From Rhodospirillales bacterium BBD 1991-14 (GTDB taxonomy: Bacteria > Pseudomonadota > Alphaproteobacteria > Kiloniellales > Kiloniellaceae): a DNA stretch of 64,000 nucleotides. A program made the translations under genes and the position numbers. The stretch covers positions 62,001 through 126,000 of the forward strand of contig LYSY01000006.1 of assembly GCA_001657395.1 (NCBI GenBank). The letters are read 5' to 3'. Positions 7,928 to 24,240 of this stretch are shown here, one piece after another (the first letter of the stretch is position 1; the number at the start of each line of letters is the position of its first letter). Under the pieces are notes generated by a model, which was not told the origin of the DNA, searched no databases, and was given only the letters and a program-made list of their open reading frames with translations.

Positions 7928-8431
7928 GAGCTGCTCACGATCTGGGGTCCGCAAGACGGGTTCACGACATTATAAGATTTCTGGGCGGCCTTATCGCATT
8001 TACTCATCTTTGTAACATGAGTGTCCAGGTCTTTCCTTAAGAGCAGGGCAGCCGCGGACCCATGGTCGGGCTGCGGCCGGTCACGCTTCAGGGGAAGGCA
8101 AAGTCTATGTTTCCTGCGGTTGAAGAACCCACCGCCCGGTTTCCGGGCCGGATGACGCGGTTTCTCGCGGAGCCGTCATCGGGGCGTCACCCCTGTCCAT
8201 TACGCTGCGTCCAAAAGGCCAATGCATATCGCATACGGTATACGGTATATCATCCTACATACAGCATGCGGGGGCGATGGACAGTGGGGATCACGGATGC
8301 AAACGACGATCCGGTGGGGGCACTCCGACGGCAGGGGCAAGCAACGGCACATGAGGCCTGCTGCTGAGGCTGGTCCTTCGCGACTGCCCCGCTCCGGGAC
8401 AGCGCGCAACCAACCATTCGAGGAGGGAGTT
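7928..8431. other. Control region between LysR gene and ABC operon
   Basis: No gene is supported in these 504 bp. On the minus strand a TATAAT -10 hexamer lies at 7969-7974, about 40 bases before the LysR start. A 6-bp inverted repeat ACTCAT/ATGAGT (8002-8007, 8017-8022, 9-bp spacer) could be a LysR site. The GTATAC motif is at 8238. The ABC binding-protein gene has AGGAGGGAG five to ten bases before its ATG. Confidence 0.5.
8231..8250. promoter_or_regulatory. Predicted GntR operator (GTATAC motif, site 2)
   Basis: GCATACGGTATACGGTATAT holds three ATAC/TAT half-site-like elements at about 8-bp spacing, centred on GTATAC at 8238-8243. The 11-mer GTATACGGTAT is shared with site 1 upstream of the TRAP operon. 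It sits 182 bp upstream of the ABC operon start. Confidence 0.5.
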
Positions 8432-10000
8432 ATGTTACGCAGTCTTCAGGCTCTGCGTGCTTCGGCAGGTGGACTGGTCAGCGCCGTCGCGCTCGCAACG
8501 GCGCTGGCTGCCGGTACGGCCGGCGCGCAGGAGAACAGCGTCCGGATCGCGGTTCAGGAGAACCCTCTGGTTCTCGATCCGGTGATGATTCAAAGGAACA
8601 CGGCTTACCGCGTCCTTCCGAACATCTTCGATACCCTGATCAAGGTTGACTATCAGGAAGGGCAGCAACTGGTACCGGGCCTCGCGACCGGGTGGCGCTA
8701 CCTGGACCCCACGACCCTGGAGCTGACGCTCCGCAGAGGCGTGACGTTTCATGACGGGACCGCCTTCACGTCGGAAGACGTTGCCTTCAGCCTTGGCGAA
8801 GAGCGCCTTGGTGAGGGCAAGCCGGGCCACGGTGCCTATAAGGGCTTCTTGAGCACCATCGCGAGCGTGGAGGCCGTCGACGACTTTACGGTTCGGGTCA
8901 CCACCTTTGCACCGGATCCCGTCCTCGAGCTGCGCCTCAGTGGCTGGGGCGCGCAGATCGTCAGCAAGGATGCCTTCGAGGCGTTGGGCGGCGATTGGTC
9001 GCGCTGGTCGGTCGGTCCGGTCGGCTCCGGGCCCTTCCGGGTCGAACGTTTCGTTCCCGGCGAGGCTTTGGTGCTCTCGGCCTTCGACGGCTATTGGGGC
9101 GATGCGCCCAGCGTCGACGAGGTGAGGTTCCTCGACGTCCCGGAAGTCTCGACACGCATTGCCGGTCTGGTTGCGGGCGACTACCACATCATCGCCGAAG
9201 TAAACCCGGATCAGATCGAGACGATTGAAAGCCACAAGGGGTTGCGTGTCGCCGGTGGCACGATCCGAAACCACCGCATCCTCACTTACGATTTCGATAA
9301 CGAACTTCTCCGGGACATCCGGATCCGCAAGGCGCTCAGCCTCGCGATCGACCGCCAACTCCTGGTGGATACCATCTGGCAGGGCAGGGTGGAGATCACG
9401 AACGGGCTCCAATGGCCGGAATTCGGTCCGCTCTACGACCCGACGCGTGAACCTCCGGTCTATGATCCCGAGGCCGCGCGCAAGCTGCTAGAGGAAGCCG
9501 GCTACGACGGAGAGGTGATCCCTTACCGGATCCGCAACAACTACTATCCTTCGGAGATAATGGAATCAGAGGCCGTTGCGGCGATGTGGAGGGCGGTCGG
9601 CTTCAACATCGACCTGCAGATCAAGGAGAGCTGGGATCAGGTCTTTGCCGAGCCGGGCACCGGCATTCGCAACGGCTCTGCACCGCCGCTCTTTGCTGAT
9701 CCCATCTCCGGTCTCTGGCGCAACTACGGGCGAGAAGGCGGCGACGAGCACCGGGAGAAATGGAGCAACGCGGAGTTCAACGCCCTCGGCAAGACTTTGC
9801 TTCAGGAAACCGACGTCGCCAAGCGCGCGGCGGCCCACGCGAAGATGCTTGAGATCTGGCACGAGCAGGACCCGCCGTCGACCATCCTCCATGCCTTGGG
9901 CCAGTTCTACGGGCTCAGGCAGGGTATCGAATGGACGCCATACAATGTGGCCTTTATGGATCTCGGTGCGGGCAATCTCTCCTTTGTCGGGACCAACTGA
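8432..10000 (+). CDS. ABC transporter substrate-binding protein, family 5 (peptide/opine type)
   Basis: This is a periplasmic receptor of 522 residues with a clear signal peptide (about 1-34, cut near AGAQE). Family 5 features include the N-terminal NPLVLDPVMIQRNTAYRVLPNIFDTL, GLATGWRYLDPTTLELTLRRGVTFHDG, GSGPFRVERFVPGE and the IRKALSLAIDRQLLVDTI hinge. The ATG at 8432 directly follows a strong AGGAGGGAG; the frame is open upstream to 8222 but that part is not secreted-protein-like. It leads a five-gene transporter operon coupled by overlaps. Peptides, opines or other amino compounds are all possible ligands. Confidence 0.92.
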   Translation: MLRSLQALRASAGGLVSAVALATALAAGTAGAQENSVRIAVQENPLVLDPVMIQRNTAYRVLPNIFDTLIKVDYQEGQQLVPGLATGWRYLDPTTLELTLRRGVTFHDGTAFTSEDVAFSLGEERLGEGKPGHGAYKGFLSTIASVEAVDDFTVRVTTFAPDPVLELRLSGWGAQIVSKDAFEALGGDWSRWSVGPVGSGPFRVERFVPGEALVLSAFDGYWGDAPSVDEVRFLDVPEVSTRIAGLVAGDYHIIAEVNPDQIETIESHKGLRVAGGTIRNHRILTYDFDNELLRDIRIRKALSLAIDRQLLVDTIWQGRVEITNGLQWPEFGPLYDPTREPPVYDPEAARKLLEEAGYDGEVIPYRIRNNYYPSEIMESEAVAAMWRAVGFNIDLQIKESWDQVFAEPGTGIRNGSAPPLFADPISGLWRNYGREGGDEHREKWSNAEFNALGKTLLQETDVAKRAAAHAKMLEIWHEQDPPSTILHALGQFYGLRQGIEWTPYNVAFMDLGAGNLSFVGTN

Positions 10001-10857
10001 TGTTCGAAGCGCCGATCGAAGGCATCGCGCCGGGGCCCTCAGCCCCGGCGCGACAAGCGCTGCGCCCGGAAGGGAGAGACATTCTTTCTGTCGAGGATCT
10101 GCGGATTGACTTCGCCGATCCGCAAGGTCCCGCACGGCAGGTGGTGGCGGGAGCGACGCTGCGGGTTCCGCTTGGCGGCTACGTCGCCGTCATTGGCGCC
10201 AGCGGATCGGGTAAGTCCCTGACGTGCCTGGCCACCATGGGTCTGGTCGACGGAGCGGCCCGGGTTTCCGGGCGCATCTGCTTTGCCGGCCGCGTCTTCG
10301 AGGCGGCCGACACTGCTGGGCTCGCCCGGCTGCGAGGATCGGGCATCGCCATGATCTTCCAGGACCCCTTTGCGTCTTTGAATCCGGTCCGCAGCATTGG
10401 CGCGCAGATCGTGGAGACGCTGCGGGTCCACGACGCCAGCCTCTGCCGGCAGACGGCGCGCAAAAAGGCCTTGGCTCTCCTGGACCGGGTCGGGTTGGAC
10501 CGGGCGGCCTTGCGCTTCTCGCAGTATCCTCACGAACTCTCCGGCGGCATGAACCAGCGCGTCATGATTGCCCTTGCCTTGTCCAGCAGCCCTCGACTGC
10601 TGATTGCCGACGAACCGACGACGGCTCTCGATGCCCGGATTCAGAGGCTTGTCATGGATCTCATCGACGACCTTCGCGTGTCGGAGGGGCTGTCCATCCT
10701 CCTTGTCAGCCATGATCTCGGGCTTGTCCGCGACTACGCCGATGCAATCTACACGATGGAGCAGGGCCGGACCGTCGAAGTCGGGCCTCCGGAGAAGCTG
10801 GCCCAGCAAGTCCAGCTCCAAGGCGGGCCTTGTCAGAGCAGCGAGGCGGTCGCGTGA
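10000..10857 (+). CDS. ABC transporter ATP-binding protein (OppD/DppD-like)
   Basis: This is a 285-residue ATPase with Walker A GASGSGKS, Q-loop FQDPFASLNP, signature LSGGMNQRV, Walker B LLIADEPT and switch His in VSHDLG. It is somewhat shorter than typical DppD because the C-terminal oligopeptide-transporter extension is reduced. Its ATG overlaps the previous stop (TGATG). It pairs with the following ATPase to energise import. Confidence 0.9.
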   Translation: MFEAPIEGIAPGPSAPARQALRPEGRDILSVEDLRIDFADPQGPARQVVAGATLRVPLGGYVAVIGASGSGKSLTCLATMGLVDGAARVSGRICFAGRVFEAADTAGLARLRGSGIAMIFQDPFASLNPVRSIGAQIVETLRVHDASLCRQTARKKALALLDRVGLDRAALRFSQYPHELSGGMNQRVMIALALSSSPRLLIADEPTTALDARIQRLVMDLIDDLRVSEGLSILLVSHDLGLVRDYADAIYTMEQGRTVEVGPPEKLAQQVQLQGGPCQSSEAVA

Positions 10858-11693
10858 GCGCGCTCGAGCCGCCTTTTCTCCGGGCCGAGGGGCTCTGCAA
10901 GACCTATCGACTGCGTTCGGCGCGGCGCTTGAGCTTCAGGCGCGGCACCTTTCATGCCTTGAGGGACGCGTCTTTCCAGATCGCCCGCGGGGAGGTCCTG
11001 GCCGTTGTTGGCGAGAGCGGCTCCGGGAAGTCGACCCTGGCCCGGCTCCTCGTCAAGCTTCTTGAGCCGACGTCGGGGGACGTCGTCCTCGAGGGAAAGA
11101 GACATCGAGACCGGCGCGGAGAAGGACTTCGCGCTCTGCGTCGGACAGTCCAACTCGTCCAGCAGGACAGCCGCGGCTCCCTTGACCCACGCATGACTGT
11201 GGGAGACCAACTGGTCGAGATCCTCAAGGTCCATGGGATCGGCTCCCATGCGGATCGGCCGGCATTGGCTGCCGGTCTCCTGGAACAGGTCGGGCTTGAC
11301 GGCGGCTTGACCACACGGTTCCCGCACATGCTCTCCGGCGGTCAGCGCCAAAGGGTCGTCATTGCCCGGGCGCTGTCGCTCGCTCCGTCGCTCCTGGTCT
11401 GTGACGAGGCGGTCTCGTCCCTCGACGTGGTTTCCCAGGCGCAGATCATCCAATTGCTGGCCTCCCTGAACGCCCAGCGCGGGGTCACGCTGGTATTCAT
11501 CACTCATGACCTCAGGCTGGCCCAGGAGATCTCTGGCCGCCTGGCTGTGATGCAGCATGGGGAGATCGTGGAGTTCGGCGCTACACGGGACGTCCTGGCG
11601 GCTCCGCAACACAGCTATACGGGCAGCCTTGTCGCCGCCGCAGCAGGTCGACGGTGCAGGCAGGAGTCCGGCCCTGCCGGGCGGTGGGCGTGA
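10854..11693 (+). CDS. ABC transporter ATP-binding protein (OppF/DppF-like)
   Basis: This is the second ATPase, 279 residues from the GTG at 10854, which overlaps the upstream stop as GTGA. It has Walker A GESGSGKST, Q-loop VQQDSRGSLDP, signature LSGGQRQRV, Walker B LLVCDEAVSSLD and the His switch ITHDL. The reading frame also has a TTG at 10830, but the overlap rule used across this operon favours 10854. Confidence 0.9.
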   Translation: MSALEPPFLRAEGLCKTYRLRSARRLSFRRGTFHALRDASFQIARGEVLAVVGESGSGKSTLARLLVKLLEPTSGDVVLEGKRHRDRRGEGLRALRRTVQLVQQDSRGSLDPRMTVGDQLVEILKVHGIGSHADRPALAAGLLEQVGLDGGLTTRFPHMLSGGQRQRVVIARALSLAPSLLVCDEAVSSLDVVSQAQIIQLLASLNAQRGVTLVFITHDLRLAQEISGRLAVMQHGEIVEFGATRDVLAAPQHSYTGSLVAAAAGRRCRQESGPAGRWA

Positions 11694-12622
11694 TGGCCGC
11701 AGTTGTCCGCAAGGTCCTGCGTGCTCTGCTCAGCGTGTGGTTCGTCGTGACTGTTATCTTCGTCGTGATGCGTCTATCGGGGGATCCGGCTCTGGAGATC
11801 TTCGGTCCCGAGGAGCTGCCCGAGGAGGTGATGGCGTCCTTTCGGGCGACCTGGGGTATCGACAAGCCGATCTGGGAACAGTACCTGACCTACGTCGGCA
11901 ACGTTTTGCAGGGCGATTTCGGGCGCTCTTTTGTCGAGTACCGCTCCGCCTCCGAGATTGTGATGGAGCGTCTGCCCAAGACCCTGGCGCTGATGGCGGC
12001 GAGCCTCGCCATCACCTTGCTGATCGGGATCCCCGCAGGCATTGCTGCCGCCCTGTTCCACAACGGCCGGCTCGACCGGGTCCTGACGGTTGGGGGAATG
12101 GTCTTCTATGCGACGCCGAACTTTGTCCTCGGCATCGCCCTCATCCTGGTGTTCTCTGTTTGGCTCGGCGTCCTGCCGGTCGCGAGCAGCGAAGCCTGGG
12201 AGAGTATCCTTCTGCCAGCCTTTACCTTCGGCGCCTCGGGAGCGGCCGTCTTCCTGCGCTTTGTCCGCGCGGCCATGCTTGATGCGCTGCGCCAGCCCTA
12301 TGTGCTGGCGGCGCGGGCGCGCGGCCTGCCTTGGCGCCGCGTCGTGCTCGGACATGTCTTGCCCAACGCGGCACTGCCGATCCTGACCATTGCCGGGCTC
12401 ACCGTCGGGGCCATGGTGGCGGGCTCGATTGTCGTTGAAACGATGTTCGCCTGGCCTGGAATTGGCCGCCTGACAACAACGGCGGTCGGCTTCCGGGACC
12501 TCGCTGTCATTCAAGTGATTGTCTTCCTTGTGATGGCGGCCATGGTCATCACCAACCTGGTGGTCGATGTGCTCTACGTCGTCGTCGATCCGCGCATCCG
12601 CATTGCCAAGGCGCCCCTATGA
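11693..12622 (+). CDS. ABC transporter permease (OppB/DppB-like)
   Basis: This 309-residue inner-membrane protein has six hydrophobic segments and the family's large periplasmic loop (SGDPALEIFGPEELPEE to LTYVGNVLQGDFGRS). The EAA-type ATPase-contact loop is at YVLAARARGLPWRRVVLGHVLPNA (quoted in two parts: YVLAARARGLPW and RRVVLGHVLPNA). The ATG at 11693 overlaps the previous stop as TGATG; a longer frame to 11654 would overlap the ATPase needlessly. Confidence 0.9.
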   Translation: MAAVVRKVLRALLSVWFVVTVIFVVMRLSGDPALEIFGPEELPEEVMASFRATWGIDKPIWEQYLTYVGNVLQGDFGRSFVEYRSASEIVMERLPKTLALMAASLAITLLIGIPAGIAAALFHNGRLDRVLTVGGMVFYATPNFVLGIALILVFSVWLGVLPVASSEAWESILLPAFTFGASGAAVFLRFVRAAMLDALRQPYVLAARARGLPWRRVVLGHVLPNAALPILTIAGLTVGAMVAGSIVVETMFAWPGIGRLTTTAVGFRDLAVIQVIVFLVMAAMVITNLVVDVLYVVVDPRIRIAKAPL

Positions 12623-13530
12623 CGCTGCTTTCGCGAACCTCTGCCCGAGCGCGCGGAGAACTCCTGCCAAACCGCTTTGAGCCCGGCCGAAAGGCAGCGG
12701 CGTCTCGGTCTCGCGTCAACTGGGTTGTCGTCGTCGCCGCGGTCTGGCTTGGTCTCTGCGTTTTTGCGGCCGTCTTTGCTGATTTCATTCAGCTCTACGA
12801 CCACCGGGCCATAGACCTGCGCGCGCGCCTCGTGCCGCCAGTCGGATTTGGCGGAACCTGGCTGCATCCGCTCGGCACGGACGAGCTTGGGCGTGATATT
12901 TACAGTCGCCTCATTGCGTCGATACGCATGAGCCTGTTGCTGGCGCTCATTGGCACGCTTGGCGGGGCGATCCTTGGGACCACTCTCGGGTTCCTCGCGG
13001 CGCATTTCCGTGGCCTTGTGGACGATGCGGTCATGGTCTTCATCGACATTCAGGCATCGCTGCCCTTCTTCGTGGTGGCCTTGGTCGCGGTCGCCATTGT
13101 CGGCCCCAGCCTTTGGCTCTTCATCATCTTGTTGAGCGTCTTCGGCTGGGAACGCTACGCAAGACTGGTGCGCGCTTTGGCCATCTCGGCCACAGAGCAC
13201 GGCTACGCCGAGGCGCTGCGCGGGCTTGGGGTGGGGCCCTTGCGGGTCTATGCCCGGCACATCTTTCCCAACATCGCCGGCGCGATCATCGTCAATGCGT
13301 CCTTGAACTTCTCCGAGACCCTGCTTCTCGAGAGCACCCTCAGTTTCCTCGGTCTCGGCGTGCAGCCGCCTGCGACCAGCCTTGGGAACATGGTCGGCTT
13401 CGCCCGTGATTACCTTGTCTCGGCCTGGTGGATGGCTGTCTTCCCCGCTGCGGTCATTCTCTTCTGCACCCTCTCGATCGGCATTCTCGGCGATTGGCTG
13501 CGCGATCGCCTCGACCCCAACACGCGTTAA
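12619..13530 (+). CDS. ABC transporter permease (OppC/DppC-like)
   Basis: This 303-residue partner permease has the conserved HPLGTDELGRDIYSRLI motif before transmembrane segment 2, the EAA loop (YAEALRGLGVGPLRVYARHI) and the ETLLLESTLSFLGLGV stretch with NMVGFARDYL. It overlaps the preceding gene by ATGA. It forms the heterodimeric channel with the OppB-like protein. Confidence 0.9.
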   Translation: MTLLSRTSARARGELLPNRFEPGRKAAASRSRVNWVVVVAAVWLGLCVFAAVFADFIQLYDHRAIDLRARLVPPVGFGGTWLHPLGTDELGRDIYSRLIASIRMSLLLALIGTLGGAILGTTLGFLAAHFRGLVDDAVMVFIDIQASLPFFVVALVAVAIVGPSLWLFIILLSVFGWERYARLVRALAISATEHGYAEALRGLGVGPLRVYARHIFPNIAGAIIVNASLNFSETLLLESTLSFLGLGVQPPATSLGNMVGFARDYLVSAWWMAVFPAAVILFCTLSIGILGDWLRDRLDPNTR

Positions 13531-13567
13531 GCCCCAAAGGCAAGCCCACTCTGTTAGAGGATCTTTC

Positions 13568-15255: not shown

Positions 15256-16167
15256 CTAGGCGGAAGGGGAGCGTCGCCGCAGACCGCCATAGACGATTCC
15301 GCCAGCAATGAGCGCCATACCGAAGGCCATGGCGAGCGTCAATTCTTCCTGGAAGAGGAGGAGTCCGACCCCGACTGCGAAGACCATCTGGGATGCGTCG
15401 ACCGGCGCCAATGCTGAGGCCGGTGCAGCGCTGTAGGCACGGGCCAGGAGGACTTGCGATCCGCAGGAAGCAAGGCCGCTGAAGGCCAAAAAGCCAAGGT
15501 CCGCGAGGCTCGGTGTTACCCAGTTCTGCACTGCGAAGATCAGGAGCAGTGCGGAGGAGAAGAGAGACAGGTTGAAATAGATGAGGATTGGTGTCTGGAC
15601 GGCCGCTGCCGGCTTCAAGAGCAGCTGCAGGGCGGCCGAGGAGAGCGCGGCACCGAGCACCAGCAGGAGCGTTTGCGCGGTGACAAGGTTCTCGGGTTGT
15701 ACGATGACGACCACGCCGAGGATGCAGATAGCAGCTGTGAGCCAGTCGGCGGGGCTACCGCGTTCGCCGAGGAAAACGCGCGAGAGAACCAGCAGGAACA
15801 CGATCTTCGAATAGAAGAGCGTGGTGACGCCGGCAATCGATCCGCTGCGAAGTGCGAGGATGAGTAGGATCGCAGTCACTGCGGCGAAGACTGCTCGAGC
15901 GGCGTTGAGGAGGAAAGCGTCTCTCTGCGGTCTCATCATCTGACGGCGCTCGTGCCGAACCAGGAGAACCGCTCCCGCGAAGACCGCCCCGAAGAGGTAG
16001 AGCAGGAAGGTCGCTTGAACTGCGGGGACAGCCGGATCCAGGAACTTGAGAGACGTGCGGTTTGCGGTGAGGAGGGCCACGGCGAAGAGAGCCTGAAGAA
16101 CCGCAACCTCAACCGAGTTCTGACTTGATCCCGGCTTGGCGAGAAGGCCTTGCCGCTGCCTGGTCAT
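15256..16167 (-). CDS. DMT-superfamily transporter (EamA family), likely exporter
   Basis: This 303-residue protein has ten hydrophobic segments in two repeated halves of five, the EamA pattern (N half LLTANRTSLKFLDPAVPAVQ and C half LLLFQEELTLAMAFGMALIA). It is the last gene of the pepM operon; its ATG overlaps the reductase stop by ATGA. DMT proteins of this type usually export metabolites, so it may release the operon's product. It is convergent with the transaminase gene, with two bases between the stops. Confidence 0.88.
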   Translation of the reverse strand: MTRQRQGLLAKPGSSQNSVEVAVLQALFAVALLTANRTSLKFLDPAVPAVQATFLLYLFGAVFAGAVLLVRHERRQMMRPQRDAFLLNAARAVFAAVTAILLILALRSGSIAGVTTLFYSKIVFLLVLSRVFLGERGSPADWLTAAICILGVVVIVQPENLVTAQTLLLVLGAALSSAALQLLLKPAAAVQTPILIYFNLSLFSSALLLIFAVQNWVTPSLADLGFLAFSGLASCGSQVLLARAYSAAPASALAPVDASQMVFAVGVGLLLFQEELTLAMAFGMALIAGGIVYGGLRRRSPSA

Positions 16168-17093
16168 CGGCCCGGCTGGGCGCCCATAACGTGCGGAGCC
16201 AGAGTTGTCTCGATGAAGCTGTTGGCCGGCGTCTCGAACCCGCAGGCGCGGCCGATACGCACGACGGTCCCGTTCATCCAGGGTGTTTCCAGCCGCCGTC
16301 CATCTTTCAGGGACCTCAGAGCGGCCGAGGTGCGCTCAGGCGCGAGGCGGTCGACCTTCGTGAGGAACGCCTCGGGCAGGGCCGGTGCCAGACTGCGGCC
16401 CTGTCTGGAGCCGGCCAAGACAGCCTCCTGCGCGGCCTCGAGGAACATCGAGCGCGCGCTCTTGTCAGTCTGGACGACCGCGATCGGTTGCCCGAGCGCA
16501 GCTGTCGTGCCCCCAAAAGCGACCCTGAATGCAAACTCCTGCCAGACCTCGTCCTCAATGTCCCGGTGCTGCGAGGCGTCCACGCCGGCGTCGACGAAAG
16601 CCTGGTAGAGTGCCGCGCAGGCTCCGGCCCGGGCGTCGTCGTAGAGGCCAATCCTAATCTCCGCCTTTTCTCCGGACTGGAGGATCTGGCCCGGCGCCAA
16701 AACCTCGGCCGCGGCGGAGACGACCGTCTCGATCACGCGTTCTGGTCCCAGAACCGCTGCGAGCCTTTGACCGCTATCGACCCCGTTCATCAGACAGAAG
16801 ACCGGAGTGTTGCGGTTGTAGAGTTTCGAAACGAGCTCTGCTGCAGGCTCCAGATCCCAGAGTTTGACACTGACCAGGACCGCATCGACGGGCGTGCCCG
16901 GCGGGGGACGCTCCGTCGCGGTTACCGGGTTGATAACCGCATCGCCGAAGCGACTGAAGATCCTCAGCCCCTTCGCGCGCAGCGCCGCCAGATGATCGCC
17001 GCGCGCCATAAAGATCACATCATGGCCGGCCGCCGCGAGGCGACCACCGAAATAGCCACCGATCCCTCCGCTGCCCACGACCAAGATCTTCAT
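16164..17093 (-). CDS. Ketopantoate reductase-like 2-oxoacid reductase (ApbA/PanE family)
   Basis: This 309-residue NADP-dependent reductase has the Rossmann motif VGSGGIGGYFGG at the N-terminus, the SVKLWDLEPAA segment and the C-terminal helical domain with ETPWMNGTVVRIGRACGFETP. The ATG at 17093 follows GGAGGACAGGC; the frame is open to 17465 but only in the neighbour's antisense. The family reduces 2-oxo acids with a bulky C3 group. In this operon phosphonopyruvate (giving phosphonolactate) or a later oxo intermediate is a possible substrate, which is inference. It is coupled to the exporter gene. Confidence 0.82.
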   Translation of the reverse strand: MKILVVGSGGIGGYFGGRLAAAGHDVIFMARGDHLAALRAKGLRIFSRFGDAVINPVTATERPPPGTPVDAVLVSVKLWDLEPAAELVSKLYNRNTPVFCLMNGVDSGQRLAAVLGPERVIETVVSAAAEVLAPGQILQSGEKAEIRIGLYDDARAGACAALYQAFVDAGVDASQHRDIEDEVWQEFAFRVAFGGTTAALGQPIAVVQTDKSARSMFLEAAQEAVLAGSRQGRSLAPALPEAFLTKVDRLAPERTSAALRSLKDGRRLETPWMNGTVVRIGRACGFETPANSFIETTLAPHVMGAQPGR

Positions 17094-17134
17094 GCCTGTC
17101 CTCCTGTGCTCGCTGGTTGGCACTCCAAAACCAC

Positions 17135-18694
17135 TCACACCTCGGCCCTTTGCAGTCGCGCTGTCCAAGACGCGGTTCCGAACTGACGGCAAAAGACCGG
17201 CCCTCTGTGCTCCGGGGTCGCTGCGCCCAGGCTTACCGCGCCTTTGAGCGTCCCGCTGTTGTAGGTGCCCTCGAAGCGGTAATAGCGAACCAGGGGCGTG
17301 GCCTGGTGGACGGCCTCCAAGACGACGGTGTTGGCGGATACATAGCCGGAGACGCTGCCCTGGGAGTGTTCGGTCAGATGCACGCCGGTAACGTCCTCCC
17401 CGGATTGGGTGAGCCGAAAGACCTGCGCGGCCGAGCGGATCAGGAAGGAGACCGAAAGATCCCACTGGCCGCTGACATCAACGCTCGCAGGCGCGCGGAC
17501 GGCTGGCTTGGCGACGCGACCGGGGTTGCGAAGGAGATGGGAAAGGGTCTCCGCAACGACCTCTGTTTCGGCATCGCTGATGTTCACCGGGTCGAGGAGA
17601 ACCGAGTTCTCGGTCGACCAGAAGTCGTGGATCAGAATCCGGGGGTCTTGATCAAGGAGAAACCGGCGCAGCTCTTCGGCGGTGAATGCAATGAGGCTTT
17701 GGTCCCAGCGCACGCGCAGCCGGACCGCGGTGACGGAGCCGGGACTGGAAAAGAGCTCCGTTGCAACACCTGGAATGGCCGTGACGGCGCGCTCGATGAC
17801 ATCGAGGCGCGGTTTCCAGGCAGCGATCTCCGCCCTAGCCGCGGGTGCCGTGATCCAGCGCTCGATCGCTGCCACGGCACCCACCATCTCTTCCTTGCCG
17901 ACTTTCATGGCGCGGCCGAAGGACTGATGCGGGGCGCTCATGAGCCACACCGCCTCGCAGAGGTCTTGGCGTCCGATGAGAATGGCAGTTGACTGCGGCG
18001 CGCGGAGATACTTGCCGCCGGAGTAGACGACAAGATCGGCGCCCTGAACGAGCCAGCGGTCCGGGTTGGAGGGCGAGAGCCCGGCGGCGTCGACCAGTAC
18101 AGGGACGCCCCTGCGCCGTGCAATTTCGGCGACGAGGGGCAAGGGCGTGCGGGCTCTTGCATCAACGCGGCCGAGCAAGCAGATGAGGACCACCGAGCCG
18201 TCGAGGGAGTCTTCCAGGCCATCCAGGTCCTCCGCGCAGACGATCTCGGCCCCAGCCAGGCGCAGGCCCTGCTCGTAGGCGAAGCGGTGATCGGCCGGAA
18301 CGAGGACGCGATTGGCCAGGGCCCCCGTGTCGGGGAGCCGCAGAACGGCCTCCGGGTCATTGCCGGCGATACAGGCGGCCGCTGTCAACGCCAGCGTCGC
18401 CGCAGTTCCGGCTGTCACGACCCCCCACTCGGCGCCGGTGAGTTCCGCGAGTCTCTGTCCGATGCCGCGCGCCAGTTCGTCCAGGGGCACAAAGGCGCCG
18501 GCCGCGGACGTCATGGCGGCGAGCACGTCATCGCTGGGATTGCTGCCGCCGTAGTCGGTTCGCACGCCGGCGCAATTGATCACCGGCCGGGTGCCCAAGG
18601 CACGAAAGACTTCGCCCGGCGCCGGCCCACGCCCGGTCGCGGGCTCACGAAGCGGGGCGAACGGCCGGGCGGGAGAGGCTTTCGTCGTGCTCAT
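17135..18694 (-). CDS. SelA-like PLP-dependent enzyme with extra C-terminal beta domain
   Basis: Residues about 25-395 match the SelA / D-glucosaminate-6-phosphate ammonia-lyase group of fold-type I PLP enzymes: VINCAGVRTDYGGSNPSDDV, GVVTAGTAATLALTAAACIAG, VLVDAAGLSPS and the PLP lysine K228 in VVYSGGKYLRAPQ. SelA itself acts on seryl-tRNA(Sec), but several relatives act on small amino acids by elimination or decarboxylation-type chemistry. Residues about 410-519 (from VSGQWDLSV) form an added domain rich in predicted strands that I do not recognise. The start overlaps the stop of the CDP-alcohol transferase gene by ATGA, so it belongs to the pepM operon. Its reaction is unknown; an amino-phosphonate substrate is a guess. 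Confidence 0.75.
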   Translation of the reverse strand: MSTTKASPARPFAPLREPATGRGPAPGEVFRALGTRPVINCAGVRTDYGGSNPSDDVLAAMTSAAGAFVPLDELARGIGQRLAELTGAEWGVVTAGTAATLALTAAACIAGNDPEAVLRLPDTGALANRVLVPADHRFAYEQGLRLAGAEIVCAEDLDGLEDSLDGSVVLICLLGRVDARARTPLPLVAEIARRRGVPVLVDAAGLSPSNPDRWLVQGADLVVYSGGKYLRAPQSTAILIGRQDLCEAVWLMSAPHQSFGRAMKVGKEEMVGAVAAIERWITAPAARAEIAAWKPRLDVIERAVTAIPGVATELFSSPGSVTAVRLRVRWDQSLIAFTAEELRRFLLDQDPRILIHDFWSTENSVLLDPVNISDAETEVVAETLSHLLRNPGRVAKPAVRAPASVDVSGQWDLSVSFLIRSAAQVFRLTQSGEDVTGVHLTEHSQGSVSGYVSANTVVLEAVHQATPLVRYYRFEGTYNSGTLKGAVSLGAATPEHRGPVFCRQFGTASWTARLQRAEV

Positions 18695-19332
18695 GCCAGC
18701 CTCGGCAGAGCCAGTGTGAGGGACGCAGCGGTGATGAAGAGGCCGTTGACCAGGTACATGAGGCCGCGCTTGGCAGGTACGCGGATGGGTGCGACGTGGA
18801 GGAGGACAAGCGTCGCAAAGCTGAGGTTCACGGCAAGAGGAAACAGCGACTCGGGCACCAGCGGGCGCAGCAGGAACAGAACGGCCAGAAAGGGGACATC
18901 GTAGGACAAAGGGACGCCCGTGAAGCGGCCACCGGTGGACATCCCGAAGGTGTTGAAGTAGGAAAGGCGCAGGGCGCCGGCCGCCAAAATCGCTGCCGCG
19001 AGGGCGTAGGCCAGAGGCTCGGCCTGGTTCACCTGAATGACCACAACGGCGGGGAAAACAGCGCCGGATACGAGGTCGGCGAAGCTGTCGAGGCTCTTGC
19101 CCATGGCCGCAGCGTCCGGGTGGCGTCTGCGCAACCGCTTGGCGACCAGACCGTCGATGTCATCGGCGAGAACGGCCCAAAGGACCACTGCCGTCCCCAG
19201 TTCTGGCAACCCGGAAAGCGCGAGCTGCAGCCCCAGGGCCGAGCAAAGCAGGCCCAGCATCGTAATAGCGTTGGCGGGGTCGTAGAGATAGCGAAGCATC
19301 GAGAGCCTCCCACGGGCTTTCTGTCCTGTCAT
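18691..19332 (-). CDS. CDP-alcohol phosphatidyltransferase family protein
   Basis: This 213-residue membrane enzyme has about six hydrophobic segments. The catalytic motif is present in variant form: D57xxD60G61xxA64K65, then G78xxxD82xxxD86, with Lys instead of Arg after Ala and a longer gap to Gly. The family transfers a phosphoalcohol head group from a CDP- or CMP-activated donor. Beside a PntC-like cytidylyltransferase and PEP mutase, it probably transfers a CMP-activated phosphonate to a lipid or other alcohol acceptor. It overlaps both neighbours by ATGA. Confidence 0.85.
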   Translation of the reverse strand: MTGQKARGRLSMLRYLYDPANAITMLGLLCSALGLQLALSGLPELGTAVVLWAVLADDIDGLVAKRLRRRHPDAAAMGKSLDSFADLVSGAVFPAVVVIQVNQAEPLAYALAAAILAAGALRLSYFNTFGMSTGGRFTGVPLSYDVPFLAVLFLLRPLVPESLFPLAVNLSFATLVLLHVAPIRVPAKRGLMYLVNGLFITAASLTLALPRLA

Positions 19333-20129
19333 CCGCCGCTCGCGGAAGCTGCGGGCGAAGCCGGTCTTGGGGTCTCCGCGAAGATGGCTTCGGCGGCTCT
19401 GAGGTCCTCTGTGCTGTCGATCTCATACCAGCGGAACTGACCGCAATGGACGGCATGGAGGCTGACGCCGCCATTTCCGATCAACTGCGCCAGGAGCTCT
19501 TCGACATAGCTTCGCGTCGCGCCGTCGGCGATCAAGCGGTCGAGGGCCGGGACAAGCTGTTGGCCCAGGGTCTCGCCCGACAGGCGCATCAGGTTCATGG
19601 TCTTGAAGAACGGCGCGGAGACCTGTTCGCTTGGCTCATGGTTCATATGGACCCCATCGATCAGGCCGCCAGAGTCCACGGTCACGGCGGAACCGCTCAT
19701 GTCCATGGAGAAAGGGGCGACCGCGGCGACGTCTCCGGCCGGGTTCGCGGCCAGCGCCCGCAAGACTTCAGCGTCGAAGAAGACATCGCCCTCAAGCAGG
19801 AAGGTATCGCCGGCAAGCAGAGCGTGGCGTGCAAGCCAGAGCGAGTATGCGCTTCCGGTTCGCTCAAAGACGCTGGACTCGCAGTAAGTGATCTCGATCC
19901 CGGCGAAGAAGGTGCCGCAGGAGCGCTGGATGGCCTCCTTGCAGTAGCCGACGACGATGGTCGCCTCCGTCACTCCGACCGCGGCAAGATTCCGCAGTGC
20001 GTTGTGCAGGATCGGGACGCCGTGAACCGCCACCAGTGGCTTGGGGCGGGCGGCTGTCAGCGGGTGCAGCCGGGAGCCGAGGCCGGCTGCGAGGATGACG
20101 GCACGCTGGGTCGTTGGGGTGGGTCGCAT
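19329..20129 (-). CDS. PntC/LicC-like nucleotidyltransferase (probable phosphonate cytidylyltransferase)
   Basis: This 266-residue nucleotidyltransferase has VILAAGLGSRLHPLT (residues 11-25), K30 in RPKPLV, the metal-binding D115 in LLEGDVFFD and the C-terminal RWYEIDSTEDLRAAE. The motif set resembles LicC-type phosphocholine and PntC-type aminoethylphosphonate cytidylyltransferases more than sugar enzymes. It would activate a phosphonate with CTP, for use by the adjacent CDP-alcohol transferase. AAGGAAG precedes the ATG. It is coupled by ATGA to the next gene. Exact substrate is inferred from context. Confidence 0.8.
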   Translation of the reverse strand: MRPTPTTQRAVILAAGLGSRLHPLTAARPKPLVAVHGVPILHNALRNLAAVGVTEATIVVGYCKEAIQRSCGTFFAGIEITYCESSVFERTGSAYSLWLARHALLAGDTFLLEGDVFFDAEVLRALAANPAGDVAAVAPFSMDMSGSAVTVDSGGLIDGVHMNHEPSEQVSAPFFKTMNLMRLSGETLGQQLVPALDRLIADGATRSYVEELLAQLIGNGGVSLHAVHCGQFRWYEIDSTEDLRAAEAIFAETPRPASPAASASGG

Positions 20130-20186
20130 GGAGACTTCCTTCTATTGGGTTGTCTGAGGGCTGGGCCCCTGGCCCTTCTTGTGCCG

Positions 20187-21434
20187 TTACTGCGCTGCGC
20201 GGAGCAGAGCAGGGGAGCGCCCGATCGCATTCAGCGCCGTGACCACGCGGGTGAGCGCACGCTTCAGATCGTCCGTGGGAAGGCCGTACGACAGTCGCAG
20301 TCCCGACAGATCGCCAAAGGCGGAGCCGGGCACAGTCGCGACACCGGTGCTGGTCAGCAGCTGTGCTGCCACCGCCTCGGCGTCTTGGAAGCGGCTGCCT
20401 TTGACTGTCAGCAGCGGTGAGACGTCGAGATAGAAGTAGAAGCCGCCTTGGGCCCGGGCGGCTCGGACTTGCTCGAGGCGGCTTAGAATCTCCAGCCCCT
20501 GTCGACGGTTCTCAAGAAGCAGATCCTGCAACTCGCGCTCGTAGGCCCTGTCCCCTTGGCGCAGGTAGTTGAGGACGGCGTGCTGCGCAATGACGTTGGG
20601 GTTCGAGGTCGTGTGGCTTTGCAAGGCTTTCACCGCGCCGACGAGGCGGGCCGGTGCGGCCATGTAGCCCAGGCGCCAGCCGGTCATCGCCAACTGCTTG
20701 GAAAAGGCGTTCACCACGACGGTCAAGGGGCGCACCTCCGGTACCACAGCGAGAAGGTGTTCGGCTCCGCCAGGTTCATGAATGAAGCCTGCATAGCAGC
20801 TGTCGAGAATGATCCAGAGGCGATGCTTCAGGGCGATCTCGGCAAGACCGCGCAGACAGCTGCGATCGTAGACCGCACCGGTTGGATTGTTGGGCGTGTT
20901 GATGATTATGGCGCGGGTGCGGGCGCTGAGACAGGCCTCGATGAGGTCGGGGCGCGGTACGTAGCCGCTGGCGGCGCTATCGACAAAGACCGGCTTCGCG
21001 CCGGCGAGGGCGACCTGGGCTGGGAAGGTCGTCCAATAGGGGCGGGGAATGATCACCTCGCTGCCGGGATCGAAGAGCAGCATGGCGGTGTTGAAGAGCG
21101 CCTGTTTCGCGCCGGCCGTGACGGCAATTTCCTCTGCTTCCCAGCGTTGGCCGGAGTCTTCGCTCAGTCGTTGCGCGATTGCCGCGCGCAGCGGCAGCAG
21201 ACCGATGGTGTCGGTATACCGGCTGACGCCTTTGGTTATGGCCGCGAGCGCACCCTCGCGTACCGCATCCGGGAAGTCGGCCCAGATCTCCCCGGCTGAG
21301 AGGTCGATAATCTCCTGGCCACTCGCGGCGGCCGCCTTTGCAGCGGCCCGCGCACGGGCGGTCCCCGATGTGCTGAAGAGTTCGCTTCTTTGCGCCAGGG
21401 CAGGGGCGGCGCCCGCGGCTCTTGTGCTGGACAT
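20187..21434 (-). CDS. Class I/II pyridoxal-phosphate aminotransferase, candidate phosphonopyruvate transaminase
   Basis: The protein has 415 residues with AspC-family landmarks: VTAGAKQALFN, NTPNNPTGAVYD, the LDSCYAGF strand, PLP lysine K247 in NAFSKQLAMTGWRLGY and the R-containing GLRLSYGLP end. Two ATGs lie six bases apart; the Shine-Dalgarno CAGGAG touches the first (21440), so the second (21434) has the proper spacing. It starts 60 bp after the pepM stop. Aminoethylphosphonate transaminases are usually class V, so this class I/II enzyme next to PEP mutase may instead aminate phosphonopyruvate to phosphonoalanine. This is inference. Confidence 0.82.
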   Translation of the reverse strand: MSSTRAAGAAPALAQRSELFSTSGTARARAAAKAAAASGQEIIDLSAGEIWADFPDAVREGALAAITKGVSRYTDTIGLLPLRAAIAQRLSEDSGQRWEAEEIAVTAGAKQALFNTAMLLFDPGSEVIIPRPYWTTFPAQVALAGAKPVFVDSAASGYVPRPDLIEACLSARTRAIIINTPNNPTGAVYDRSCLRGLAEIALKHRLWIILDSCYAGFIHEPGGAEHLLAVVPEVRPLTVVVNAFSKQLAMTGWRLGYMAAPARLVGAVKALQSHTTSNPNVIAQHAVLNYLRQGDRAYERELQDLLLENRRQGLEILSRLEQVRAARAQGGFYFYLDVSPLLTVKGSRFQDAEAVAAQLLTSTGVATVPGSAFGDLSGLRLSYGLPTDDLKRALTRVVTALNAIGRSPALLRAAQ

Positions 21435-21494
21435 CTCCATCTCCTGATTCCGGCGGGAAGATCAGACCCCGCGACCCGTGCCGGCTGGTCTCGA

Positions 21495-22424
21495 TCACCC
21501 GCGCGGCGCGTCGGCGGGCAGATACAGTGTTTCGGCTCTGGAGAGCTCGTCGTAGCCGAGCAGGCCGAAGACCTCGTTGAGGGACGCGACCTCTGGCTCG
21601 ATGCCGGCGATGCTTTCCTCGCGCAGGATGCGCTCACAGACACTGCGCATAGCCGCGACAGCCGCGCGCATGTTGTGGTTGGCCCAGATCACCGTGGAAA
21701 TCCCGGCGTCGCGGTAAACTGCGACCGCAGTACGGTAGTACTTTGTCGGCACGATCACGAGCGGGCAGCGGCCGCCCCAGGCCTCGGCGAACGACAGGAT
21801 CTCGTCCGCTGTGGCCTTGCGGGAGTGGATGAGGATGGCATCGCTGCCCGCTTCGAGGTAGGCCGCGGCACGGTCCAGAGCCTCCTGCTCGCTGCGGCCG
21901 GCAATCAGCGCCTCGACCCTGGCCACCAGAACGAACTTCGGATCTGCGACGCCGTCCTTCACAGCCTTGAGCCGGCCGCAGAACTCGTCGACCTCGGCCA
22001 ACGGGTGGCGTTCGCCGACGAAGGAGTTCATCTTGGGAAAGCCCTTGTCTTCCAGACAGACCCCGGAGGCGCCGCGCTGGGCCAGCTTGCGGGCGACGAG
22101 GCGCGCGTTGTTGAAGTTTCCGAAGCCGGAATCGCAGTCAACGAGAACCGGGACAGAAACGGCTGAGACCATGCGCTCAACCGTGTCGACGACCTCGCTC
22201 CACGAAGCCTCGTTACTGTCGCGATAGCCGAGGGTCGATGAGATTGACAGACCGGAGGCCCACAGTCCCTGAAAGCCCGCCTGCTCCGCTATGGCTGCGG
22301 AAAGCGCGTCATGGGCTTCCATCAGGAAGCTCAGGTTCGGTCCGCAGATAAGCTCGCGGAGGCGACTGTCTGCGGTGCGGCTCGGGGCGTTCAGAAGATC
22401 CGGTTGGCTACGGTCGAGAGGCAT
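21495..22424 (-). CDS. pepM: Phosphoenolpyruvate phosphomutase
   Basis: This enzyme forms the C-P bond by rearranging PEP to phosphonopyruvate, the entry step of almost all phosphonate biosynthesis. The 309 residues contain WASGLSIS, YRDSNEASW with D69, DCDSGFGN with D96/D98, and the diagnostic EDKGFPKMNSF (E125-D126-K127 and N133-S134), followed by RVEALIAG and VIWANHN. The EDKxFPKxNS motif separates true mutases from the hydrolase at 4657-5520. AAGGAG touches the first ATG (22430), so the ATG at 22424 is more likely. It is the first gene of the leftward operon, downstream of an AT-rich control region. Confidence 0.92.
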   Translation of the reverse strand: MPLDRSQPDLLNAPSRTADSRLRELICGPNLSFLMEAHDALSAAIAEQAGFQGLWASGLSISSTLGYRDSNEASWSEVVDTVERMVSAVSVPVLVDCDSGFGNFNNARLVARKLAQRGASGVCLEDKGFPKMNSFVGERHPLAEVDEFCGRLKAVKDGVADPKFVLVARVEALIAGRSEQEALDRAAAYLEAGSDAILIHSRKATADEILSFAEAWGGRCPLVIVPTKYYRTAVAVYRDAGISTVIWANHNMRAAVAAMRSVCERILREESIAGIEPEVASLNEVFGLLGYDELSRAETLYLPADAPRG

Positions 22425-22510
22425 CGTCATCTCCTTGTCATGTCACGGTAAATTGACGGTCAATTTCTGAGCCGACAAGACAAAGAATGACAATTTTATT
22501 GAATATATTT

Positions 22511-22576
22511 TATACGTATATTGAATATACAATATAGTATTCGGTTTCTGGTGTTATGTGTTCAGTATACAGAAAG
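22511..22576. promoter_or_regulatory. AT-rich palindromic operator region of the pepM operon (GTATAC motif, site 3)
   Basis: Several inverted repeats lie together: TATACGTATA (22511-22520), GAATA/TATTC with a 10-bp spacer (22523-22542) and TTCAGTATACAGAA (22561-22574), in which GTATAC is flanked by TTC and GAA. CAGTATAC is shared with sites 1 and 5. The position 90-150 bp upstream of pepM fits transcriptional control of the operon by a GntR regulator. Confidence 0.5.
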
Positions 22577-22870
22577 CATAGCATCTTTTTCTATATCCCT
22601 TGATTCGTTGGTTGAGTACGCTGAGTCTGGGCGGGTGCCGCCGATGGAAGCCGATATCCATACTTTTGCTGAGGGAGCAAATACGAAGCCCGCTGACGGG
22701 ATTGCCCGCCGCCAGAAAGCCGCATACATCGCTGGTCGCTTGGCCGAGACCGCGTCTTGGACCGCGGTTGCGACGCTCCTGACTGCCATCACGTCGCCTG
22801 GCCCGGAGCGGTAAACGCGTTTCCGGGGGGAGCAGGTTTCCTTGGGGGACGGGATCGTCCATGACTTTCT

Positions 22871-22919
22871 CCCCGCAGACATCGGCCCCCCGCAGACATC
22901 GGCCCCCCGCAGACATCGG
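22871..22919. repeat. 17-bp tandem repeat, about three copies
   Basis: CCCCCCGCAGACATCGG repeats with period 17; GCAGACATCGG occurs at 22875, 22892 and 22909, the first copy lacking two C bases. It lies in non-coding DNA between a GntR gene and pepM. Confidence 0.85.
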
Positions 22920-23285
22920 AAGGCCAGGCGGCGCGGCCTTTGGACGGATGATGCACGCTAAGAGCGATCCTTTCGGCACGCCCGGTGATCGGAATCCTAT
23001 TTCCGTAGACTTTTCAGGGGGAAGTCCCGGCTGCCGGCTTGAGGCCCGAACGCGGTCTCGAAGACGCTCACAAGGCCCGGCTGACCGCACCGACAATCGG
23101 GTGCGAGGGCACGCTGGCGGGCCACGACGAAAGGTTGAGCCGATGGCCGCCCGGTAGGGGCATCTGTCCGGCGTCGGGCGCTGCCTCGCGGCGGGCCGGT
23201 GTCAAACCTCGCTACCGCCCGGCGCCCCCACTTCCCAGTGCCCCAAGAGCACCGGTAGCGGAGCGCAGGGCCTTGGGCGCCGGCC

Positions 23286-24077
23286 TCAGCCCGCGAACCC
23301 GCGGCGGCGCTCGTAGGCACGGCGCCGGCGGGGCCGCGGCTCTTCCATCTCCAGGTCCCGAAGACGGGCGCAGACAAACTCTCCTGTCTTACGGACGTGT
23401 TGCTCGATGAGACTGCCGGCTTCTTCGGCTTCCCGCCCTTCGATCGCCGTTAGGATCGCTCTGTGCTCTGCCACGGACTCGTCCCAGCGCTCGACGGCCC
23501 GAATAGCCGCGACTCGAACACGCCTCGCACCGACAATCAGCTTTGCATGAATCTCAATTAAGGTCGCATTTCCGCTGAGAGAAGCATAGGAGTGGTGAAT
23601 CTGGTCGTTCAGCTCGGAGTACTCCAGGCGCTTTCCCTCGCTGTGAAAAGCGAACATCTGCCGATGCAGTTCCGCCAGCCATCTGATCTGGTCATCAGAG
23701 ATTCTTCGGGTCGCAAGTTCGCCGCAGACACGCTCGATCAGTGCCAGCGCTTCAAACTGGCCTTGTGTCTGATCTGCTGTGATGCGCGAGACGTATGTGC
23801 CCTTGTGCGGCTCGATGAGGATCAGGCCTTCGCCCTGCAGCGCCTTCAGCGCATCGCGCAAAGGCGTTCGGGAGCACCCAAGAAACTCCGCAAGGTCATT
23901 CTCGTTGATGCGCTCGCCCGGCCGCAGCTTGCCTTCGATGATGAGATTGCGGACCCGCTCAGTGACAGCCACATGCATCGGAGCCCGGGAGACGCGACCT
24001 GGGGCCGTTTGGTGGCTGCCACCGAAGGGGCCGGATGGGGACGGCTCCAGGCCGTCTGAAGCCTGCCAGTCTTTCAT
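23286..24077 (-). CDS. GntR-family transcriptional regulator (FCD/FadR subfamily), copy 2
   Basis: This 263-residue protein has a winged helix at about residues 30-100 (IIEGKLRPGERINENDLAEF, CSRTPLRDALKALQGEGLIL) and an FCD domain at about 110-235 (ELNDQIHHSYASLSGNATL, EQHVRKTG). It matches the regulator at 521-1207 along its length, in both DNA-binding and ligand domains, so the two probably recognise related sites and ligands. The C-terminus is an arginine-rich tail (PRPRRRRAYERRRG) absent from copy 1. The ATG at 24077 follows AAGGA; the frame extends to 24119. It is divergent from the decarboxylase-like gene, with GTATAC sites between. Confidence 0.87.
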   Translation of the reverse strand: MKDWQASDGLEPSPSGPFGGSHQTAPGRVSRAPMHVAVTERVRNLIIEGKLRPGERINENDLAEFLGCSRTPLRDALKALQGEGLILIEPHKGTYVSRITADQTQGQFEALALIERVCGELATRRISDDQIRWLAELHRQMFAFHSEGKRLEYSELNDQIHHSYASLSGNATLIEIHAKLIVGARRVRVAAIRAVERWDESVAEHRAILTAIEGREAEEAGSLIEQHVRKTGEFVCARLRDLEMEEPRPRRRRAYERRRGFAG

Positions 24078-24133
24078 GAACGGATTCCTTGTCTGAGGAT
24101 GCCTCTCTGCCACAACCAATAAGCGATTCCTTT

Positions 24134-24145
24134 ATCGTATACCTG
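24134..24145. promoter_or_regulatory. Predicted GntR operator (GTATAC motif, site 4)
   Basis: ATCGTATACCTG lies 57-68 bp upstream of the GntR copy 2 start, which suits autoregulation. It has the GTATAC centre of sites 1-3 but different flanks, so confidence is lower. Confidence 0.4.
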
Positions 24146-24240
24146 AAAGAATATTGGTAGACCTCTTGGCGCGGTCCAGAGGAAAAAAAGTGGCACGGCT
24201 GAACCCGAAAACTCTGGTATTTCCTTGTCAAAGAGTGGAT

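Follow-up and report, generated by a model that had tools for sequence, protein, structure and literature searches.

A seven-gene cluster from an alphaproteobacterium suggests a transaminate-first, cytidylyl-activated phosphonate pathway with relatives mostly in rhizobia

Phosphonate pathways bear on antibiotics as well as on the phosphorus cycle. The window analyzed here, a 64,000-nucleotide stretch of contig LYSY01000006.1 from Rhodospirillales bacterium BBD 1991-14 (Alphaproteobacteria, Kiloniellaceae), contains a minus-strand set of seven genes (22430-15256) that very probably serves phosphonate biosynthesis of some kind. In order, the genes encode a phosphoenolpyruvate (PEP) mutase (PepM), a class I aminotransferase, a cytidylyltransferase, a CDP-alcohol phosphotransferase, a pyridoxal phosphate (PLP) enzyme, a 2-oxo-acid reductase and a predicted exporter (Table 1). 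We hold, at slightly better than even confidence, that the route transaminates first, activates with a cytidylyl group and ends in a small phosphonate. The core of the first four genes, as read from the sequence, brings together phosphonoalanine formation and cytidylyl activation, each already known on its own. Our searches of an open-access library turned up no description of a core joining the two, and Li and Horsman 2022 may already tabulate it.

We infer every reaction of this route from observed gene content, homology, motifs and conserved gene order. PepM would convert PEP to phosphonopyruvate, and the aspartate-aminotransferase-like enzyme would pull this uphill step by turning phosphonopyruvate into phosphonoalanine, replacing the decarboxylase. 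The PntC-type enzyme would couple the aminophosphonate to CMP, and the phosphatidylserine-synthase-like enzyme would form a phosphonate ester by handing the phosphonate over from CMP to an alcohol. Remodeling of the amino-acid end, most probably a decarboxylation, may fall to the PanE-like reductase together with the SelA/Cap15-like PLP enzyme, either before or after the transfer step. The EamA protein would export the product, and an adjoining ABC importer may retrieve the product or its relatives.

A first-pass annotation had placed a seven-gene phosphonate operon here, and all seven genes are found there on the minus strand, with Pfam and NCBIfam scores that match the families it named. The gene set does differ, as it had claimed, from the usual combination of mutase, decarboxylase, transaminase and cytidylyltransferase. 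Its description of the junctions as mostly ATGA overlaps was too strong: the gaps are, in order, 54, 57, −4, −4, 41 and −4 bp, so that a 4-bp ATGA overlap occurs at three of six junctions only. Because no gap exceeds 57 bp, a single operon is plausible. The gene order recurs in other genomes. A scan of species genomes with two CDP-alcohol orthologs gave 34 loci (L numbers below), which is a lower bound since exact peptide patterns were required, and in which the CDP-alcohol gene is present by construction. In 25 of the 34, the first four genes share a strand and keep their order, a count made without a gap limit (2.9 kb separates the first two in L026) and including broken or partial genes (L053, L054). 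Given the family scores and this shared order, a chance grouping of the genes is very unlikely.

PepM scores 348.7 bits with the mutase model TIGR02320 (curated cut-off 319.55), retains the diagnostic motif intact (EDKGFPKMNS, of the EDKxxxxxNS type) and has the PEP mutase 1m1b as its best PDB match (E = 3.5e-96). Two in-frame ATGs, at 22430 and 22424, are alternative candidates for its start codon. A catabolic operon for phosphonopyruvate or phosphonoalanine could be suspected since phosphonopyruvate hydrolases are closely related to PepM, and the GntR protein encoded upstream resembles a phosphonate-use regulator (TIGR03338 phnR_burk, 121.8 bits, under the cut-off of 271.5). However, the hydrolase model TIGR02321 gives PepM 230.2 bits, far under its cut-off of 374.4, while the cut-off of the mutase model is exceeded, and a cytidylyltransferase and an exporter are unsuited to breakdown. 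We rejected the catabolic explanation on the scores of these two models and consider it scarcely credible. Of the genome's five PF13714 matches, this PepM alone was scored against TIGR02320; another of the five lies in the window at 4657-6402 on the minus strand (180 bits).

The usual driving steps for PEP mutase are transamination, decarboxylation and reduction (PMC12871164), and transamination of phosphonopyruvate by an enzyme of the AAT superfamily is a demonstrated coupling step in Streptomyces (PMC11867202). The window aminotransferase (PF00155, 191.8 bits) has aspartate aminotransferases as its best PDB matches, and this type fits phosphonopyruvate as a substrate without proving it. No TIGR03297 decarboxylase was found above cut-off in the genome (best 39.3 against 312.5 bits); 14 control genomes likewise gave none, so this search has no positive control. 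Together with PepM, the aminotransferase makes a phosphonoalanine branch likely. The Streptomyces phosphonoalamide cluster pnaABCD is alike in pairing a PEP mutase with an AAT-superfamily aminotransferase to form phosphonoalanine (PMC11867202); in contrast, the seven window genes include no ATP-grasp ligases and suggest cytidylyl activation rather than peptide coupling. Several observations weigh against the proposed transamination. The enzyme resembles ordinary aspartate aminotransferases, and its score reaches the cut-off for none of the 25 NCBIfam models listed, among 82 matched. There is no aminotransferase match beside PepM, NTP and CDPOH in L035, L041 and L051, and none is listed in the incomplete gene table of the plasmid region L064. 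As the aminotransferase is not present at every locus, this step may be served from elsewhere, or differ, there.

The cytidylyltransferase passes two Pfam models (PF00483, 52 against 21.2; PF12804, 49.3 against 27). A profile of 29 orthologs searched against the PDB places LicC 1jyk first (1.9e-24), the nucleotidyltransferase 7whr second (4.9e-20) and PntC 6pd1 third (2.9e-18). In the PntC structure, Glu104 and Glu196 are placed to contact the amine of aminoethylphosphonate (AEP), and LicC has D105 and D192 there (PMC6697681). E113 of the window protein is well aligned to Treponema PntC Glu104 and to the LicC Asp, and is invariant in 29 of 29 orthologs. E210, equally invariant (29/29), has a low posterior where it aligns to PntC Glu196; in LicC its counterpart, within a weak second domain of 11.4 bits, is an Asp 87 residues past the first, which equals the D105-to-D192 spacing. 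The conserved Glu pair therefore points to an aminophosphonate substrate, with AEP and phosphonoalanine not told apart, and we regard CMP activation of an aminophosphonate as quite likely. The phosphonate biosynthesis with nucleotidyl activation proposed in the first-pass annotation is well supported by homology, including the Glu at E113 and, tentatively, that at E210.

The PntC/Ppm clusters described by Rice et al. 2019 (PMC6697681) resemble the window operon in that a PEP mutase gene neighbors one for a LicC-like cytidylyltransferase carrying Glu where the amine is contacted, E210 being a tentative counterpart of the second such Glu. Unlike them, the window operon has no decarboxylase or AEP transaminase, its cytidylyltransferase is unfused, and it carries additional genes for the phosphatidylserine-synthase-like, SelA-like, reductase and EamA proteins. 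The two PntC enzymes characterized in that work favor AEP over phosphocholine, which would suit ordinary AEP decoration of the cell surface with a decarboxylase supplied from elsewhere. We consider such decoration highly improbable: the genome search described above yielded no decarboxylase over the cut-off (a search without positive control), the transaminase is of the class I aspartate type and not the AEP-transaminase type, and no LicD-type family occurs among the Pfam matches of the seven genes.

The fourth protein is a member of PF01066 (31.6 against a cut-off of 22). A 28-row profile has the phosphatidylserine synthase (PSS) 7pow as its best match (2.6e-11), and an AlphaFold2 model of the protein (predicted local distance difference test, pLDDT, 94.6) has 7b1k as its top Foldseek match (E = 1.0e-5). 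The aspartates of the CDP-alcohol motif (D..DG..A, G...D...D), D57, D60, D82 and D86, are invariant in the 28 rows. By its profile the enzyme is PSS-like and not a PssA member, scoring 62.1 bits with TIGR00473 against a cut-off of 107. In MjPSS the active-site residues are Arg49, which is linked to the CDP-diacylglycerol phosphates, Ser63, Arg101, Arg104 and Phe105 (PMC8633023), and in our family alignment the Arg101 position is invariant and that of Phe105 nearly so. The remainder of this active site, which is only partly kept, counts against the assignment: Tyr mostly stands in for Arg104; Ser63 is retained in the window, but most relatives have Gly; and Arg49 gives way to Lys in the window and to various residues elsewhere. 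Transfer of the phosphonate to an alcohol seems fairly likely.

The alcohol could be diacylglycerol. In a phosphonolipid operon, CMP-phosphonoalanine or CMP-AEP would be joined to diacylglycerol to give a phosphono analogue of phosphatidylserine or phosphatidylethanolamine, as both the profile and the model of the transferase, nearest to PSS, and the LicC/PntC-like cytidylyltransferase would allow. PSS, however, takes CDP-diacylglycerol as its donor, and no such cytidylyltransferase is needed for it; moreover, the operon contains an EamA exporter, and the shifting tail genes, like the importers, PF01663 phosphodiesterases and C-P lyase genes that adjoin the core in some relatives, suit a small molecule better. 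A phosphonolipid is therefore an unlikely product. The first-pass annotation had left both a phosphonolipid and a small exported phosphonate open; the exporter and some relatives' importers, phosphodiesterases and C-P lyase genes favor the latter, and we lean with reasonable confidence to an exported small molecule rather than a lipid.

The tail of the window operon consists of the SelA-like, PanE-like and EamA genes. The EamA protein (PF00892, 69.8 against 28.2) has EamA-like counterparts at L023 and, by membership of the same similarity cluster, at L047; the reductase, which starts at the ATG at 17093, passes TIGR00745 (195.3 against 141.35). The PLP enzyme matches 8t7j (Cap15) at 1.1e-37 and 7lc0 (DgaE) at 1.6e-34 by phmmer; Foldseek also ranks 8t7j at the top, with 7lc0 nearly as close. 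It is under the curated cut-offs for DgaE (160.6 against 600) and SelA (22 against 267.9), and its C-terminal extension is present in all 8 aligned rows. A role for it in this pathway is weakened by its moderate model (pLDDT 80.6) and by its nearest characterized relatives, which catalyze other reactions.

Tails vary among the relatives. SelA-like genes were detected by tblastn in 11 of the 34 loci (7 full length; L027, L037, L048 and L053 partial), CobD/HisC-like genes (cluster c10) in 6 and MocR-like PLP proteins (cluster c3) in 12, with the qualification that c10 and c3 genes are not always directly behind the core and that c3 includes at least one protein resembling a full MocR regulator. 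The L031 tail protein is CobD-like (TIGR01140, 176 bits, under the cut-off of 290.55), that of L029 is EhuR-like without the DNA-binding part, and a methyltransferase, SDR, FAD oxidase, AsnB or formyltransferase may also trail the core. Cap15 is an oxygen-dependent (oxidative) amino-acid decarboxylase and CobD a decarboxylase, and our guess is that tails of differing type trim the amino-acid end. At L049 (14983-16689), a CobD-like part (residues 245-553) is fused behind a cytidylyltransferase-like stretch, an arrangement that we take to recall FrbH of FR-900098 biosynthesis.

This fusion, the CobD-like protein in some relatives (L031) and genes of similar length annotated as histidinol-phosphate transaminase in L058 and L061 would fit a route in which CMP is a temporary handle: the aminophosphonate would be worked on while CMP-bound and later released, the product of the CDP-alcohol enzyme being minor or unrelated. 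The incomplete gene table of L065 lists no CDP-alcohol gene, and the FR-900098 route uses CMP-bound intermediates (PMC13302981). The window is alike in its inferred CMP-bound aminophosphonate, and differs in lacking a homocitrate-synthase-like branch and in having a SelA/Cap15-like PLP enzyme. However, the CDP-alcohol gene follows the other three in the 25 ordered loci, although the loci were fetched by that gene, and we judge a temporary handle to be rather improbable.

The first-pass annotation had treated the locus as a single case; it is a member of a family whose other carriers are mainly rhizobia. Of the 34 loci, 31 are rhizobial by record title. The other three come from a Kiloniellales metagenome-assembled genome (MAG; L031, the source of one of the two query rows), from Steroidobacter and from an alphaproteobacterial MAG. 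A single strain accounts for both L025 and L036, as does another for L032 and L048. The core genes are rearranged in L042, and L055 is without a CDP-alcohol match in the order-counting scan. PepM and aminotransferase are missing from L040, L048 and L050, and these and the cytidylyltransferase from L045. In the order of the window organism, 11 of 61 genomes (own included) match the cytidylyltransferase at 1e-15, G026 with 61% identity and the other nine with at most 32%; across the class, only its own genome and G175 (32%) match at 1e-30 among 385 genomes (own included). With so few close matches in order and class, the operon is patchy. A scan of viral contigs with the cytidylyltransferase gave no relative. 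Loci L018 (7591-10400) and L019 (8124-10856), from the same genus and family, have a 30% identical cytidylyltransferase beside another CDP-alcohol-like gene and an AEP-transaminase-like gene (named from sequence), with no PepM within 16 kb; we treated them as a different system.

Among 72,556 plasmid records, the cytidylyltransferase has matches in 49 at 1e-30 and the mutase in 87 at 1e-60; many equal-scoring Agrobacterium rows are probably near-identical. The core lies side by side and in order in 3 of 8 core-bearing plasmid regions opened (L058, L061, L062), as judged from an incomplete gene table. The remaining regions detract from a conserved core: genes are interposed in L056 and L057, the CDP-alcohol gene of L059 is apart and on the other strand, and the same incomplete tables list no aminotransferase in L064 and no CDP-alcohol gene in L065. 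L056 is the Ti plasmid pTi_CFBP1905, where genes are inserted in the core; the core is then followed (21052-24912) by ParB-type, ornithine cyclodeaminase, alanine racemase and cysteine synthase genes, a set familiar from 2,3-diaminopropionate biosynthesis. The only other Agrobacterium record opened, plasmid pAvCG78a of Agrobacterium vitis (L063), is without the core. In it, a PepM gene adjoins a citrate synthase-type gene (12097-14171), which suggests another phosphonate branch.

In a PepM tree, the window protein clusters with L033 and L047, both with SelA-like genes (support 93/82, under the starred level of the tool). The diagnostic EDK is replaced by EDS in the Bradyrhizobium PepM proteins of L026, L035, L037, L051, L052, L054 and L064, and by EDT in L049, L061 and L065. 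All non-EDK proteins tested (L026, L037, L051, L049, L061) pass TIGR02320, and filters that demand EDK would miss such proteins, whose activity may differ. L026 also has a second PepM-like stretch adjoining the aminotransferase (6971-7870), with stop codons in the frame read, which is probably decayed.

The setting of the rhizobial relatives raises the question of whether nitrogen-fixing nodules contain a bacterial phosphonate, and what it would be for. We searched for NodA in the genomes of 27 of the 34 loci and found it in 19. Core and NodA are on one contig in 6 of these 19 and on different contigs in the other 13. The distances are 30 kb (G465), 54 kb (G466), 57 kb (G454), 58 kb (G445) and 74 kb (G453) in Bradyrhizobium, and 356 kb on one Mesorhizobium contig (G461). 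On a plasmid of Mesorhizobium sp. 131-3-5, the core is about 9 kb from nifQ and about 8 kb from rpoN. Rhizobial cores near nodulation or nitrogen-fixation genes may make a symbiosis-linked metabolite. Bradyrhizobium roseus, a relative of the rhizobia found here, also has a PEP mutase gene (pepM, with ppd and pdh); it differs in following a decarboxylase route and not the transaminase-cytidylyltransferase core (PMC10708946).

Among 34 upstream regions examined, taken from 26 loci and 8 plasmid regions, 5 have a −24/−12 (sigma-54-type) pattern 166-184 bp before pepM, and in those 5 two NifA-type TGT-N10-ACA sites lie above it. The same promoter and two-site pattern occurs at 181-212 bp in L042, L088 and L090, for a total of eight Mesorhizobium loci; the promoter pattern is absent in L089, L091, L061, L065, L049 and L030. 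A scan of both strands of 42 loci (1,677,824 bases) gave 20 promoter patterns, of which only six have two NifA-type sites, all of them the ones before pepM; L026 and L037 have promoter patterns with one site, away from pepM. L032, L034, L043, L044 and L057 form one clade of the PepM tree (L042, L088 and L090 are outside its sample), and our reading is that the pattern before pepM has one origin. A nod-box pattern had no match in the 34 upstream regions. Upstream of the window pepM we looked for the NifA/sigma-54-type pattern and found none, and no link of the window organism to symbiosis could be shown.

Expression data exist for the symbiosis island of M. loti R7A, where by gene number pepM adjoins an aspartate-type aminotransferase (PMC3538637). 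In nodules, lacZ fusions to pepM (msi327), aatA (msi326) and asnB (msi323) gave 827, 2456 and 862 Miller units, respectively, falling to 8, 16 and 22 in a nifA2 mutant and to below 20 in broth (PMC3538637). The authors described the genes as without NifA-regulated promoters, considered direct activation highly unlikely and suggested an indirect effect; terms in phosphono- are absent from the main text of that paper. In the relative L061, nifQ and rpoN precede the core, which is accompanied by asnB, comparable to the R7A msi genes, and from this gene order we would place the R7A msi327/msi326/msi323 cluster in the same family as the window core. The tail genes differ between R7A and the window, and the window organism is without a known symbiotic setting. 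By the terms searched, the main texts of two bacteroid transcriptome papers do not name a PEP mutase; one of these papers is on M. huakuii, and a different strain of that species (L088) has the NifA-type pattern.

An importer lies beyond the 3′ end of the window operon and may belong with it. Its substrate-binding protein (SBP_bac_5; PF00496, 249.6 bits) is the best of 22 such proteins in the genome for 11 of 13 core-linked rows, the exceptions being L056 and L062. This comparison has weaknesses that lower its weight: 8 of the 13 rows (two of them L037 pieces) come from the similarity cluster c5 that contains the window protein, which makes it partly circular, and the window protein is the best match for 3 of the 5 rows that were selected through their annotation. 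In addition, the rows share descent, and the comparison covers this importer type; importers of another type (c6, c13, c17) also lie near the core. The importer could also serve an unrelated D-amino-acid pathway, and the link of the racemase-like and D-amino-acid transaminase genes 3′ of it to phosphonate is uncertain; the former scores 20.1 bits with PF01177, under the cut-off of 31, and the latter 367.8 against 320 with NF005209. A relative of the c7 permease (L024:15954-16880) belongs to PF00528.

An SBP_bac_5-type importer gene (cluster c5) is found beside the core in the window and in 7 of the 34 loci, and ABC importers also occur in L056, L058, L061, L062 and L065. PF01663 phosphodiesterases lie beside the core in L022, L024, L030 and L049; PhnJ, PhnI and PhnG are encoded in L028, and L033 and L048 share those gene clusters. 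On plasmid pSINME02 of S. meliloti AK83, the core, an importer, an alkaline-phosphatase-family gene, phnF and a phnM-type gene are within 29 kb. PhnJ of the window genome is elsewhere, on contig C19.

In rhizopine and agrocinopine systems, a compound is made and exported, and genes for its import and breakdown lie close by, carried on Ti plasmids or symbiosis regions; the core family can be likened to them on the basis of its genes. A family of phosphonate rhizopines would consist of exported, cytidylyl-activated esters derived from phosphonoalanine, made in nodules under NifA control; kin would re-import them through a dedicated importer and, with phosphodiesterase and C-P lyase, break them down for phosphorus and nitrogen reserved to themselves. 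The window organism would be a non-symbiotic member. We offer this as a doubtful but conceivable extension of the transaminate-first route.

Table 1. Features of the phosphonate locus and its surroundings, in window coordinates.
Feature	Position	Strand	Basis
PEP mutase (PepM), 311 aa	21495..22430	-	TIGR02320; best PDB match 1m1b
Class I aminotransferase, aspartate aminotransferase-like	20187..21440	-	PF00155; PDB matches such as 1bkg
LicC/PntC-type cytidylyltransferase, 266 aa (P0003)	19329..20129	-	PF00483, PF12804; 29-ortholog profile
CDP-alcohol phosphotransferase (P0004), nearest fold phosphatidylserine synthase	18691..19332	-	PF01066; profile; AlphaFold2 model and Foldseek
SelA/DgaE/Cap15-like PLP enzyme with C-terminal beta domain (about residues 409-514)	17135..18694	-	phmmer; Foldseek
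PanE/ApbA-like 2-oxo-acid reductase	16164..17093	-	TIGR00745
EamA-family exporter (predicted)	15256..16167	-	PF00892, two stretches
GntR/FCD candidate regulator upstream of pepM	23286..24119	-	PF00392, PF07729; start codon uncertain
15-bp inverted repeat GTATAT-TCA-ATATAC upstream of pepM	22516..22530		possible operator (putative)
Substrate-binding protein (SBP_bac_5) of ABC importer	8429..10000	+	PF00496
Two ABC ATPases of importer	10000..11693 (ORFs 9931-10857, 10830-11693)	+	cluster c2
Two importer permeases	11654..13530 (11654-12622, 12619-13530)	+	clusters c7, c11
Racemase-like protein	13571-14329	+	PF01177, under cut-off
D-amino-acid transaminase	14372-15253	+	NF005209

Upstream of the GntR gene, a PGA_cap protein (158 bits) at 25596-26897 on the minus strand could be a local phosphodiesterase. 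In addition, a DUF6025 protein (457 bits) at 27048-28598 on the plus strand stands beside a Dus-family ORF (28629-30152).

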